Positions 21,953 to 40,348 of a stretch of DNA of 64,000 nucleotides are shown here, in pieces. The position numbers and the translations under genes are program-made. The notes under the pieces were generated by a model that was not told where the DNA came from, ran no database searches, and saw only the letters and a program-made list of their open reading frames with translations. Numbering within the stretch: position 1 is the first letter of the stretch; every line of letters begins with the position of its first letter. Location: contig NZ_VANU01000001.1 of NCBI RefSeq assembly GCF_005771535.1, positions 496,001-560,000 of the forward strand, given 5' to 3'. This DNA comes from Arcobacter arenosus. GTDB lineage: Bacteria > Campylobacterota > Campylobacteria > Campylobacterales > Arcobacteraceae.

Positions 21953-22621
21953 TTAAATTTTTTGATTTTTTAATTTTATTTTGTTTGCTTTTAAAAATAT
22001 CATCCACAAAAACCAAAAACTTATAGTAATACCAATGGCACCATAAATTGCAGGTATAGGATTTTCTAAATCACTTATTGAGCCAGCATATGCAATTACA
22101 GATAAATATGGTATTGTTCCCAATGACCAAGCAATGAAAAATCTTTTTATTGACATACTGCAAGTTCCTGCTAAACAAGCTGAAATCTCCGGAAGCATAG
22201 GTACTGCTCTTGATAAAATTAGTACAAGGATTCCATGTTTATTAAATAAATCTTTCATTTGCTCAATTTGTTCTTGGTCTGACGTTAATCTATTTAAAAT
22301 TTTTAAACCATATTTTCTTGACAAAAAATACCCAGTAAAAGAAGCCAATAAAAGCCCAAAAAAGGTGTATAAAAATGCTAATTCAAACCCTAAAAAATAC
22401 CCTGCAAGAATTATTACTGTCATTGTAGGTACTGCAATAAATAAATCTACTAAAAGTAAAAATACAATCAAAAAGCCTAAAATATATGATGGTTGAGATT
22501 TTAAAACTTCAAAAACCTCTTTTATATCAGAAACAGTCAATATTCCACTAAATTTTATTAAAATTAAAGTTGATGTGAAAATTAACATTAAAATTAATAC
22601 ACTTTTAATAAGAAGTCGCAT
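21953..22621 (-). CDS. TVP38/TMEM64-family (VTT domain) membrane protein
   Basis: A 222-residue integral membrane protein of the VTT/DedA superfamily, with about five hydrophobic segments. Signature segments are FGLLLASFTGYFLSRKYG and LSRAVPMLPEISACLAGTCSMSIKRFFIAWSLGTIPY; the latter contains the conserved re-entrant-loop pattern. Relatives act in lipid scrambling, undecaprenyl-phosphate recycling or stress responses; the substrate here is unknown. It appears monocistronic. Confidence 0.87.
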   Translation of the reverse strand: MRLLIKSVLILMLIFTSTLILIKFSGILTVSDIKEVFEVLKSQPSYILGFLIVFLLLVDLFIAVPTMTVIILAGYFLGFELAFLYTFFGLLLASFTGYFLSRKYGLKILNRLTSDQEQIEQMKDLFNKHGILVLILSRAVPMLPEISACLAGTCSMSIKRFFIAWSLGTIPYLSVIAYAGSISDLENPIPAIYGAIGITISFWFLWMIFLKANKIKLKNQKI

Positions 22622-22774
22622 CTTTTACCCATTTATTTTTTAAATTAAGGAAGATTATTAAAAGTGGATTTAATATCAACTTGATAAAATATATTAATAT
22701 AAAAAATATATTAATGAGTCATTAATTTAACTAGTATTAAGTTTTTATTAACTAAAATTCTATATTCTAAAATT

Positions 22775-22860
22775 AAGCAAGTTCCAAGGGTTGGAACGAC
22801 AACATAGCTTTTCTTGTCAACACTGCTTTTTAGGAAAACTTATATTTATTTGAGGTTTTC
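22775..22860 (+). promoter_or_regulatory. Candidate riboswitch-like 5' element: three-way junction plus SD-sequestering hairpin
   Basis: Just before the TudS-like gene, P1 (AAGCA 22775-22779 / TGCTT 22824-22828) encloses two perfect helices: P2 GTTCCAA 22781-22787 / TTGGAAC 22791-22797 with a GGG loop, and P3 GACAA 22798-22802 / TTGTC 22814-22818 with an 11-nt loop. P2 and P3 abut without a linker, allowing coaxial stacking. Downstream, GAAAACTT (22834-22841) can pair with GAGGTTTTC up to 22860, hiding the GAGG Shine-Dalgarno of the ATG at 22861. I do not recognise the family. Confidence 0.5.
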
Positions 22861-23412
22861 ATGAATCGAAGCAAAAAAATCATTCTTTTAAGTCATTGTA
22901 TACTTAATTCTAATGCAAAAGTTTATTCCTTAGCGAATTATAGCGGGTGTATATCTGAACTTATTACTTCTTTATGTGATAAAGGTTACGGAATTTTGCA
23001 ATTACCATGTCCAGAGATGCTAACCTGTGGGGTTAATAGATGGGGAATGGTAAAAGAACAATGCGATACAGCAATATATAAAAAACAATACAAAAAAATG
23101 CTACTTCCTATTATAAATCAATTAATTGATTATAAAAATAATGGATATGAAATAAAAGGCTGCATTGGTATAGATGGAAGTCCAAATTGTGGCATAAATA
23201 AAACCTGCAGAGCTGATTGGAAAGGGGAGATAGATAAATTTTTTGATTTAGAAAAAAAGTTAAACTCTTTACAAACAGTGAATGAAGCAGGCATTTTTAT
23301 GGAAGTGTTTTTTAAATTACTTAAAAAGAACAATTTAGAGTTATCTTTTTTTGCTTTAGATGAAGAAAATCCAACAGCCTTAGTTAAGGCTATACAAAAG
23401 GAACTTTTATGA
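22861..23412 (+). CDS. TudS-like (CD3072-type) putative desulfidase
   Basis: A 183-residue cytoplasmic protein related to the 2-thiouracil desulfidase (DUF523/TudS) superfamily, whose characterised members use a [4Fe-4S] cluster to remove sulfur from thiolated substrates. Cysteines suited to the cluster are in LLSHCILN, QLPCPEMLTCGVNRWG and GIDGSPNCGINKTC. The substrate is unknown. Its stop overlaps the start of the binding-protein gene (ATGA), so it is the first gene of an ABC importer operon and may act on the imported molecule. It lies behind a candidate regulatory RNA. Confidence 0.8.
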   Translation: MNRSKKIILLSHCILNSNAKVYSLANYSGCISELITSLCDKGYGILQLPCPEMLTCGVNRWGMVKEQCDTAIYKKQYKKMLLPIINQLIDYKNNGYEIKGCIGIDGSPNCGINKTCRADWKGEIDKFFDLEKKLNSLQTVNEAGIFMEVFFKLLKKNNLELSFFALDEENPTALVKAIQKELL

Positions 23413-24134
23413 AAAAATTTTTTACAGGCTTATTGTTAACATTTGGTATATTTGCAAATGCTCAACAAGATGTTATTACAGTTGGTTTATGTGCAGCGTA
23501 TCCACCATTTGAATCAAGAGATGAAAAAAGTGGAAATATTGTTGGTTTTGATATCGATTTAGCAAATGAAATTGGTAAAATCATTGGTAAAAAAGTTGAA
23601 ATTAAAGATGCAGAGTGGCAAGCTCTACTTGGTGGACTTAAAAATGACAACTATGACATTATATTAAGTGCTATGAGTAGACAAGAAGCTGGTGAAAACA
23701 ATGTAAATTTATCAGATACTTATTACTTACTAAATGATGTATTAATAGTAAAAAAAGATAATAATAAAATCAATTCACAAAAAGATTTAGCTGGTAAAAC
23801 TGTTGGTGTTCAACTTGGAAGTGGAAGTGAACAAGTTGTTGATAAATTAAATGGACTTGGGAAAGTAGCTAGATATAACTATAATCCAGAAGCATTTTTA
23901 GATTTGAAACACAATCGTATTGATGCTGTTGTTGTTGGGTATGCTTATGCATTAAATCAAAAAGATTTTAATAATGAATATAAAATTGTTGATAAACTAG
24001 CACCGGCAGAATTAGTTGTTGTTATGAAAAAAGGGAAAGATGATTTAACAAAACAAGTTAATGAGGCTTTAAAAACTTTAAAAGATAACGGTACATACGA
24101 TAAATTAATTAACAAATGGCTGGCAGTAAAATAA
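23409..24134 (+). CDS. Amino-acid-type ABC transporter substrate-binding protein
   Basis: A 241-residue periplasmic family 3 solute-binding protein with a signal peptide (about 1-18, ending FANA). Family patterns: AAYPPFESRDEKSGNIVGFDIDLANEIGK, LLGGLKNDNYDIILSAMSR, and DLAGKTVGVQLGSGSEQ. These bind polar amino acids or related small molecules such as cystine or arginine; the ligand is not certain. Coupled to the TudS-like gene by ATGA overlap and to the permease by direct abutment. Confidence 0.9.
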   Translation: MKKFFTGLLLTFGIFANAQQDVITVGLCAAYPPFESRDEKSGNIVGFDIDLANEIGKIIGKKVEIKDAEWQALLGGLKNDNYDIILSAMSRQEAGENNVNLSDTYYLLNDVLIVKKDNNKINSQKDLAGKTVGVQLGSGSEQVVDKLNGLGKVARYNYNPEAFLDLKHNRIDAVVVGYAYALNQKDFNNEYKIVDKLAPAELVVVMKKGKDDLTKQVNEALKTLKDNGTYDKLINKWLAVK

Positions 24135-24788
24135 GTGAATTTTAGCGCTGTCTTTGATAACTTGGGGTTTCTTTTAGAAGCCTCATGGCTTACAATTTAT
24201 CTCTCTTTTGTATCTTTTGTAATTGCACTATTTATTGGTGTAATTGTGGGTACACTAAGAAGCTTAAAGACAAACTACTTTATTAAATTTTTAATCAGCT
24301 CATATATTGAAATTTTTAGGGGAACACCTTTACTTATTCAACTATTTTTTATATATTATGGCCTACCACAAATTGGTATTACAATGTCAAGTCATCAAGC
24401 TGCTATTATAGGTTTGTCTTTAAATTTTGGTGCATATATGGCTGAAATTGTTAGAGCTGGAATTCAAGCAATACCAAAAGGACAATATGAGGCTTCAAAT
24501 TCCTTAGGACTTAGCAAAATTCAGATGTTTATACATATAATCTATCCGCAAGCATTTAAAATAGTCTTACCTCCACTTACAAATACCTATGCATCTATTT
24601 TAAAAGATAGTTCACTAGTTTCAGTTCTTTCAATAACTGAATTAACAAGAGCAGGTCAACTTATATATGTACGAACTTATGAACCTTTTGAAATATATTT
24701 AACACTTGGAGTTTTTTATTTTATAATGACATACACAATAGCAATTTTCTCTAAACATTTAGAACGAAAAGTTAATAGAACTAAATAA
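24135..24788 (+). CDS. Amino-acid-type ABC transporter permease (HisM/GlnP family)
   Basis: A 217-residue inner-membrane permease starting at a GTG directly after the binding-protein stop. Typical features are FRGTPLLIQLFFIYYGLP and the EAA loop (EASNSLGLSKIQMFIHIIYPQAFKIVLPPL) that contacts the ATPase. A cognate ATP-binding subunit is not encoded next to it; the following gene is an unrelated hydrolase, so the transporter must borrow an ATPase made elsewhere. Confidence 0.92.
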   Translation: MNFSAVFDNLGFLLEASWLTIYLSFVSFVIALFIGVIVGTLRSLKTNYFIKFLISSYIEIFRGTPLLIQLFFIYYGLPQIGITMSSHQAAIIGLSLNFGAYMAEIVRAGIQAIPKGQYEASNSLGLSKIQMFIHIIYPQAFKIVLPPLTNTYASILKDSSLVSVLSITELTRAGQLIYVRTYEPFEIYLTLGVFYFIMTYTIAIFSKHLERKVNRTK

Positions 24789-24859
24789 AACCACAGAATT
24801 CAATCCATAGTTTTGTACTTTTTATGATTTTTAAGTAAAATTTTCCAAAAAGGATTTTT

Positions 24860-25744
24860 ATGCTTTTTAATCAAACTTTTAAAGAAGAAAAAATCAAATT
24901 TGATAATAGTGAAATCAATTTCTTACATGGAGGAAAAGGTGAAGCTCTTTTATTAATACATGGCTTTCCTCAAACCCATACAATGTGGCACAAAGTTGCC
25001 AAAGAACTTGCTAAAAAATATTATATTGTTTGTCCTGATTTAAGAGGTTATGGTGATAGTTTCAAACCTATAGGCTTAAAAGACCACTCAAATTATTCAA
25101 AAAAAGTTATGGCAAAAGATATGATTAATGTAATGGATTATTTAGGATTAAAAAAATTTTATGTAGCAGGTCATGATAGAGGTGCTAGAGTTGCCCACAG
25201 GATTTGCTTAGATTATGAAGAAAAAATTTTAAAAGCATGTTTTATGGATATAGCCCCCACATACCATATGTTTGAAAATACAAATCAAGCTTTTGCTACG
25301 GGATATTATCATTGGTTTTTTCTTATTCAGCCAGATTATCTACCTGAAAAAATGATAGGTGATGACCCAGCATATTATTTAAAAGAAAAACTTAAAAGAT
25401 GGAGTGACAAAGATATAGCCTTTGAAGAAAAGTTTGATGATAAGGCAATAAATGAGTATATAAGATGTTATGATGAAGCTTCAATCCATGGAAGCTGTGA
25501 AGATTATAGAGCGGCAGCATCAATCGATATGATAGATGATGAAAAGACAAGAAATAGGAAATTAAATACCCCATTATTGGTTTTGTGGGGAGAGAAAGGT
25601 TTTGTAAATAAAACCTATGATGTAATTAAAATTTGGCAAGATTATGCAAATAATGTACAAGGAAAGACACTGCCTTGTGGACATTTTTTACCTGAAGAAA
25701 AACCCAATGAAGTAATTGATGAATTAAAAATTTTTTTTAATTAA
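24860..25744 (+). CDS. Fluoroacetate-dehalogenase-like alpha/beta hydrolase
   Basis: A 294-residue alpha/beta hydrolase closely resembling haloacetate/fluoroacetate dehalogenase. Motifs: HGFPQTHTMWH, PDLRGYGDS, GHDRGARVAHR, MDIAPTY, YYHWFFLIQP, CEDYRA and CGHFLPEE. Residues corresponding to the characterised enzyme are all present: nucleophile D106, carboxylate-binding R107 and R110, acid D130, halide pocket H151, W152 and Y216, and general base H275. The family reaction is hydrolysis of the C-halogen bond of haloacetates to glycolate. Activity on fluoroacetate is an inference; a related epoxide or ester hydrolase is possible. It has its own SD and seems separate from the ABC operon (70-bp gap). 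Confidence 0.82.
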   Translation: MLFNQTFKEEKIKFDNSEINFLHGGKGEALLLIHGFPQTHTMWHKVAKELAKKYYIVCPDLRGYGDSFKPIGLKDHSNYSKKVMAKDMINVMDYLGLKKFYVAGHDRGARVAHRICLDYEEKILKACFMDIAPTYHMFENTNQAFATGYYHWFFLIQPDYLPEKMIGDDPAYYLKEKLKRWSDKDIAFEEKFDDKAINEYIRCYDEASIHGSCEDYRAAASIDMIDDEKTRNRKLNTPLLVLWGEKGFVNKTYDVIKIWQDYANNVQGKTLPCGHFLPEEKPNEVIDELKIFFN

Positions 25745-39597: not shown

Positions 39598-39673
39598 GAC
39601 CCGTTAGCTCAGCTGGTAGAGCATCTCCCTTTTAAGGAGGTGGCCGAAGGTTCGAATCCTTCACGGGTCACCA
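39598..39673 (+). tRNA. tRNA-Lys (TTT)
   Basis: A 76-nt cloverleaf with acceptor GACCCGT/ACGGGTC, anticodon TTT in CTTTTAA, T-loop TTCGAAT and encoded CCA. Identical to the second tRNA-Lys copy at 40107. Confidence 0.97.
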
Positions 39674-39690
39674 TTTTTTATATTGATATT

Positions 39691-39765
39691 GGCCCCTTCA
39701 TCTAGCGGTTAGGATTCATGGTTTTCATCCATGCCACAGGAGTTCGAGTCTCCTAGGGGTCACCA
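39691..39765 (+). tRNA. tRNA-Glu (TTC)
   Basis: A 75-nt cloverleaf, acceptor GGCCCCT/AGGGGTC, anticodon TTC in TTTTCAT, encoded CCA. Repeated exactly at 39916. Confidence 0.97.
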
Positions 39766-39775
39766 TCATATAAAA

Positions 39776-39851
39776 GGTCGATTAGCTCAGTTGGTAGAGC
39801 GCTACCCTTACAAGGTAGATGTCACAAGTTCGAGTCTTGTATCGACCACCA
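39776..39851 (+). tRNA. tRNA-Val (TAC)
   Basis: A 76-nt cloverleaf, acceptor GGTCGAT/ATCGACC, anticodon TAC in CTTACAA, encoded CCA. The T stem is ACAAG/CTTGT, differing from the second copy by one compensated pair. Confidence 0.97.
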
Positions 39852-39915
39852 TGAATTTAAAAAGTGTACTAGATGTACAGTTTTTAAAGAACTAAAAATT
39901 TATTGTCTATTAAAT

Positions 39916-39990
39916 GGCCCCTTCATCTAGCGGTTAGGATTCATGGTTTTCATCCATGCCACAGGAGTTCGAGTCTCCTAGGGGTCACCA
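39916..39990 (+). tRNA. tRNA-Glu (TTC), second copy
   Basis: Same 75-nt sequence as the copy at 39691. It follows a 64-bp spacer containing a TGTAC/GTACA hairpin flanked by A5 and T5 (39859-39885), which may be a processing site or weak terminator. Confidence 0.97.
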
Positions 39991-40005
39991 TTTATGTATA
40001 AGTGT

Positions 40006-40082
40006 GCGGTTGTAGTTTAGTTGGTTAGAATGCCTGCCTGTCACGCAGGAGGTCGCGAGTTCGAGTCTCGTCAACCGCGCCA
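40006..40082 (+). tRNA. tRNA-Asp (GTC)
   Basis: A 77-nt cloverleaf, acceptor GCGGTTG/CAACCGC, anticodon GTC in CTGTCAC, G discriminator and encoded CCA. Repeated at 40272. Confidence 0.97.
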
Positions 40083-40106
40083 CTTTTATATATTTATTTC
40101 ATGAGC

Positions 40107-40182
40107 GACCCGTTAGCTCAGCTGGTAGAGCATCTCCCTTTTAAGGAGGTGGCCGAAGGTTCGAATCCTTCACGGGTCACCA
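40107..40182 (+). tRNA. tRNA-Lys (TTT), second copy
   Basis: Same 76-nt sequence as the copy at 39598, including the preceding GAGC bases, so the duplication extends slightly upstream of the gene. Confidence 0.97.
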
Positions 40183-40183
40183 T

Positions 40184-40259
40184 GGTCGATTAGCTCAGTT
40201 GGTAGAGCGCTACCCTTACAAGGTAGATGTCATAAGTTCGAGTCTTATATCGACCACCA
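40184..40259 (+). tRNA. tRNA-Val (TAC), second copy
   Basis: Differs from the copy at 39776 only in the T stem: ATAAG/CTTAT in place of ACAAG/CTTGT, a C-G pair replaced by T-A. It starts one base after the tRNA-Lys CCA plus a T. Confidence 0.97.
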
Positions 40260-40271
40260 TTCAAAAATGTT

Positions 40272-40348
40272 GCGGTTGTAGTTTAGTTGGTTAGAATGCC
40301 TGCCTGTCACGCAGGAGGTCGCGAGTTCGAGTCTCGTCAACCGCGCCA
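40272..40348 (+). tRNA. tRNA-Asp (GTC), second copy
   Basis: Same 77-nt sequence as the copy at 40006 and the last tRNA of the cluster. No strong terminator hairpin follows; a short T-rich stretch and then a C8 run lie before the sensor kinase promoter. Confidence 0.97.

Follow-up and report, generated by a model that had tools for sequence, protein, structure and literature searches.

To our knowledge, Campylobacterota have few known metabolite riboswitches. The only one picked up by a transcriptome study of Campylobacter jejuni was the TPP riboswitch (PMC3847290), and a GC-IGR survey that analysed Arcobacter sp. L left rare, genus-confined motifs unnamed (PMC6429828). The element described here, a folded RNA at positions 22775–22860 of a 64,000-nucleotide stretch of the Arcobacter arenosus genome (the window), lies directly 5' of a tudS-like gene; it may be among those unnamed motifs, but it spans three families, not one genus. 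With translational riboswitches that have a small junction aptamer it shares a covarying, aptamer-like domain in the 5' UTR, conserved junction bases, a hairpin that masks the Shine-Dalgarno (SD) sequence, and downstream genes for an importer and an enzyme. It differs from them in that its three-way junction has no extra helices and is perhaps pseudoknotted in part, and in that it has no match in Rfam. Bacterial SECIS elements and the E. coli selAB leader, which is SECIS-like and regulated by SelB according to selenium status, have in common with it a short stem, a G-rich loop (GG) and a possible link to selenium. The SECIS elements of the same genomes have, in the commonest predictions, pentaloops (CGGGU or GGUGU), whereas the leader has a GGN triloop, extra helices, conserved flanks and no UGA.

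The first gene of the operon (22861–23412, forward strand) encodes a putative desulfidase of the TudS-related CD3072 family (NF045597, 188.5 bits against a cut-off of 130). Like the TudS and RudS desulfidases of thiouracil and 4-thiouridine (PMC10611767, PMC11417400), it has three cluster cysteines, the catalytic Glu and one catalytic Ser; unlike them, it belongs to a separate CD3072 subfamily that is tied to importers, and it falls below the Pfam cut-off for 2-thiouracil desulfurase (20.6 vs. 34.7 bits). The corresponding residues (C13, C50, C110, E52, and S107; for their roles in the TudS active site see PMC10611767) are invariant in 14 relatives. The family match and the intact catalytic residues agree with the first-pass annotation of this DNA, which had proposed a TudS-like, sulfur-removing enzyme. 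No PDB chain matched the desulfidase, either by sequence or by profile.

Two importer genes follow on the same strand: one for a family-3 solute-binding protein (PF00497; 23409–24134), whose start overlaps the tudS stop, and one for an ABC permease (PF00528; 24135–24788), whose GTG start comes directly after the binding-protein gene. The order of element, tudS, binding protein and permease is conserved in intact operons, with no ATPase gene within the three-gene unit, and the binding proteins of the operons are 74–95% identical to that of the window. An importer for an amino-acid-like solute had been suggested at the outset, and the importer genes are indeed present; the amino-acid-like part is doubtful. 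The binding protein belongs to the family-3 fold family but lacks the alpha-amino-acid clamp: aligned with the ancestral binding protein AncQR, it has Gly95 and Gly177 at the clamp positions, and both are invariant across the binding proteins of 10 operons. In E. coli GlnBP, we take Arg75 and Asp157 to be the clamp for the carboxylate and amino group of amino acids. Because the Arg and Asp of this clamp are replaced by Gly, the imported solute is, judging from sequence, probably not an ordinary alpha-amino acid. Five genomes have a gene for a TauE/SafE-type exporter behind that of the permease (L043 3746–4462; L044 4037–4753; L045 7814–8530; L074 4824–5540; L075 4454–5215; assigned by Pfam in L043 and L074, and by sequence likeness in the others), a neighbor that fits sulfur chemistry, though weakly. 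Elsewhere in the window, a cluster of eight tRNA genes (39598–40348), two each for Lys, Glu, Val, and Asp, has pairwise equal scores, as if duplicated.

All helices of the leader lie on the forward strand. P1 pairs AAGCA (22775–22779) with UGCUU (22824–22828). P2 is the hairpin GUUCCAA-GGG-UUGGAAC (22781–22797; arms 22781–22787 and 22791–22797), whose triloop (GGG, 22788–22790) reads GGN in 12 of the 13 leaders that we compared and GAU in the remaining one (G052). P3 (22798–22818) abuts P2 and pairs GACAA (22798–22802) with UUGUC (22814–22818); the motif CGACA (22797–22801), made up of the last base of the P2 region and the P3 5' strand, is identical in all 13 leaders. P4 (22834–22860) pairs GAAAACUU (22834–22841) with AGGUUUUC (22853–22860) and covers most of the tudS SD sequence GAGG (22852–22855), which is mostly paired in the predicted ensemble. 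Each helix is thus at the position given in the first-pass annotation, which had also proposed that a hairpin pairs the GAGG. Its 7-bp P2 is not general: the outermost G-C is present in three of nine sequences, and the general helix consists of the six inner pairs (22782–22787/22791–22796). Its statement that the element matched no known family still stands, as Rfam 15 contains no match for the window element at the gathering score, nor a family for four divergent homologues at the curated gathering score.

Folded alone, the window leader has an ordinary energy (z −1.0), and its minimum-energy structure contains P2, P3, and the SD hairpin but not P1, the 3' strand of which has the coding start as its partner in place of AAGCA. 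Because the single-sequence fold lacks P1 and has ordinary energy, our case for the structure is built on conservation. Across 11 loci, the stretch (U/A)AAG(C/U)(A/G)...[P2]CGACAA is near-constant, and the P2 arms vary in step.

CD3072 genes were sought in the genus (16 genomes), the order (399), the family to which the window belongs (104), and a second family, f20 (44). They turned up at 11 loci, each with the same element upstream. A covariance model (R2) was built from nine sequences, with the P3 loops trimmed because model R1 had aligned G264 and G052 through the P3 loop, and was run over 397 Campylobacterota genomes. The six carriers already known in this sample scored 50–74 bits, and the remaining hits scored at most 27 bits, which is chance level. 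One of these weak matches (25.1 bits, E 0.012), in a genome of a third family (G519), lies directly upstream of a previously unseen CD3072 gene; three weak matches that score above it have no such gene behind them, and the weak hits L060–L062 lack one. That any among about 10 weak matches should fall in front of a CD3072 gene by chance has a probability of roughly 2 in 10,000. G592, a genus mate of G519, likewise carries the element. A CD3072 profile run over the same 397 genomes found exactly seven genes above the cut-off, in the seven element-bearing genomes, so that element and gene coincide in 7 of 397 genomes with exceptions in neither direction. Altogether, Campylobacterota yielded 13 CD3072-type TudS genes, spread over three families, and each of them has the element directly upstream. 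It was not found near the CD3072 genes of Clostridium, Acetoanaerobium, Cetobacterium, or Enterococcus. A search of the 397 genomes with the exact pattern TTCCN{3,9}GGRACGACAA was discarded, as it gave mostly chance matches, similar to the reversed control. In one carrier (G010; L006, reverse strand from 1695) the operon is decayed: tudS breaks off after about 65 codons, the leader is intact, and the binding-protein gene was not recovered.

A lack of covariation among homologues, which the first-pass annotation held would speak against the element, is not what the alignments gave. In a hand alignment of 13 sequences, whose shared ancestry makes the counts indicative rather than exact, P2 is paired in 78 of 78 cells, with double-sided changes in five of its six pairs. 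A covariance-model alignment of 11 homologues, fitted to the structure, has P2 paired in all 11, with double-sided changes in four of six pairs (a count matched by 1 of 500 shuffles); the covariation score was equalled by none of 500 shuffles, and pairing over the whole structure is 96%, falling to 36–52% when the partner strand is slid. The same P2 pairs appear in a MAFFT alignment made without structure (P3 loops trimmed for length), from which RNAalifold predicts P2 and P3, not P1. The other helices vary less in the hand alignment, again with indicative counts. P1 is paired in 62 of 65 cells, with a double-sided change in one of five pairs (in genus g94, where A-U has become G-C and a C is bulged) and three changes on one side only, which leave G-U; P3 is paired in 51 of 52 cells over four pairs with no double-sided change; and P4 has double-sided changes in two of seven pairs. 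Shuffles reached the observed value in 0 of 2000 cases for P2, 0 of 2000 for P4, and 115 of 2000 for P1. On these double-change and shuffle counts, the case for P1 draws partly on conservation and that for P3 entirely so. The pair of genomes from the third family illustrates the changes: in G519 and G592 the outermost general pair of P2 is G-C in place of U-A, P1 is GAG/CUC in place of AAG/CUU with one bulged C, and the A-tract/U-tract of the SD hairpin is replaced by GGGG..CC with GG..UCCC.

This pattern bears on what kind of signal the element is. As a perfect inverted repeat close to where the promoter is expected, P2 could be a transcription factor site acting as a DNA operator, but its arms change yet stay complementary, the conserved bases lie beside the repeat and not inside it, and its spacing from the start codon is constant and coupled to P4; we consider an operator very improbable. 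The leader is very likely a real, conserved, lineage-restricted cis-regulatory RNA. Such an RNA might be bound by a protein, either the TudS-like iron-sulfur protein of the operon itself or another regulator, which would recognize P2 and CGACA and control translation in autoregulation or in a stress response. A short hairpin with a conserved loop and flank is a typical protein site too, and the confinement of the element to the CD3072 gene is what autoregulation predicts. However, the bases of P2 vary while pairing alone is kept, CD3072 genes of other phyla have no element, and a junction with an alternative pairing partner exceeds the needs of most protein sites, all of which leaves a protein-binding leader unlikely in our estimation, though the most credible of the alternatives.

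P4 is predicted in 12 of the 13 leaders, the exception being G052. In the ligand-free ensemble, the P1 3' strand pairs predominantly with the first codons or the region of the start codon, which lengthens P4; in the window, its competing partner would be AAGCA in tudS codons 3–5 (22869–22873), as the minimum-energy fold and a shuffling test suggest. Pairing of this strand with the native coding start is higher than with shuffled ones (mean 0.57 vs. 0.23). Because P1 and the extended P4 are mutually exclusive, they would form a natural switch in which a ligand favors P1. We infer the coupling of P1 to P4 and the direction of switching, with an ON switch for a salvage operon slightly favored. 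When the P1 strands are occupied, the computed accessibility of the SD sequence hardly changes. Control of tudS could spread along the operon by translational coupling, given that the binding-protein gene starts before tudS has ended and the permease gene begins directly behind it.

A second pairing involves GCUU in the P3 loop (22807–22810), whose complementarity to AAGC exceeds that of loop shuffles over eight lineages, the loops sharing ancestry. Both sides changed together in G577 (AAGU/ACUU), but the pairing is missing in G009 and G010 and, unlike P1, does not track the GAG/CUC change of g94. The corresponding pseudoknot (P1alt) was accordingly rejected as the main structure; from sequence comparison, the pairing may represent an alternative or pseudoknotted state. 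Three other mechanisms were set aside. An anti-sequester hairpin between the U-tract and the A-tract is too weak by hand estimate. No intrinsic terminator, as a transcription attenuator would need, was found on the forward strand within 22600–24900. The frame through GAACGACAA, a candidate leader peptide, has a TTG start without a ribosome-binding site and is broken by a stop in G002 and a frame shift in G165. It is also improbable that the leader is a passive 5' UTR structure that stabilizes the message or tunes basal translation and senses nothing: P1 is weak on its own, as such a structure would allow, but near-invariant bases that are unpaired or one-sided persist across three families together with a hairpin masking the SD sequence.

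Genomes outside Campylobacterota give clues to the chemistry. In Enterococcus raffinosus (L051 3986–5030) and E. gilvus (L071 4989–6031), selB, a class V aminotransferase gene, and selA are followed by CD3072 and CD3073, the latter encoding an ECF transporter component, a context that suggests a role in selenium supply. In Cetobacterium and Acetoanaerobium the CD3072 gene lies beside CD3073, with or without other ECF parts, and in a Clostridium its downstream neighbors are Ugp-type sugar ABC genes. Our literature search found no mention of CD3072 or CD3073. Because two enterococci have the CD3072 gene within a selenocysteine operon, selenium has to be weighed seriously against sulfur, and the substrate of the enzyme is best stated as a thio- or seleno-compound. 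The genome of the window carries a pair of selD genes, each containing an in-frame UGA (G000:C8:75379-76296, L076; G000:C8:117069-117983, L077).

The link to selenium also raises the question of a SECIS-like element, with SelB and Sec-tRNA binding P2 to repress or activate the operon by selenium status. In its favor, P2 combines a short stem with a GGN loop, selB or selA occurs together with a UGA-containing formate dehydrogenase in every Campylobacterota carrier tested, and the enterococcal operons point the same way. The selenocysteine trait is, however, also present in most relatives of the carriers, and its link to the element is weak (p 0.04 and 0.11, kinship ignored). The commonest SECIS predictions in the same genomes have the loops noted above, in contrast to the P2 triloop with its free third base (and GAU in G052), and the conservation of AAGCA and CGACA is left unexplained. 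No UGA precedes P2 in the window leader, which rules out a true SECIS; a selAB-type regulatory site would not require one. We therefore hold SECIS-like control to be improbable as well.

We favor, with some reserve, the reading of the leader as a metabolite-sensing riboswitch of an undescribed class that acts on translation of the tudS, binding-protein, and permease genes. P1, P2, and P3 would form a compact junction in which the near-invariant AAGCA and CGACA strands hold the ligand, and P4 would mask the SD sequence of tudS. The P1 3' strand would choose between AAGCA, with the aptamer formed, and the coding start, as an extension of P4 with the SD sequence sequestered; ligand binding would shift this balance and so set translation of tudS, and translational coupling would carry the effect to the binding-protein gene, which overlaps tudS, and on to the adjoining permease gene. 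Several lines of evidence lead us to this reading. As in riboswitches, a conserved, covarying structure lies in the 5' region of the predicted mRNA: P2 covaries, P1 and P4 somewhat, and the near-invariant bases lie outside the varying helix. P4 lies over the SD sequence in all but one leader, the P1 3' strand prefers the native coding start, and no Rfam family matches. Element and CD3072 gene coincide, and G519 was found by the RNA model first, as a weak hit. The operon combines an enzyme with an importer, and such operons are often under riboswitch control. The reading is weakened by the small set of 13 related sequences, by the absence of covariation in P3 and its restriction to one pair of one genus in P1, by the nearly unchanged computed SD accessibility when the P1 strands are occupied, by the missing P4 of G052, and by the CD3072 genes outside Campylobacterota that have no element.

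The probable ligand is the thio- or seleno-compound that the operon imports, such as a thiolated or selenated heterocycle, or its desulfuration product. A bolder and distinctly tentative proposal is that this riboswitch class would be the first to sense an organic molecule that is thiolated or selenated (possibly a thio- or seleno-pyrimidine, -imidazole, or -hydantoin), and that it guards a dedicated pathway in which the molecule is imported and then desulfurated or deselenated to supply sulfur or selenium metabolism. A 2026 review states that prokaryotes have no identified selenium transport system that is both specific and of high affinity (PMC13188914). A ligand for the leader would reveal the substrate of the uncharacterized CD3072 enzyme family and of its varied importers and, if it were a seleno-compound, would point to a selenium uptake route.
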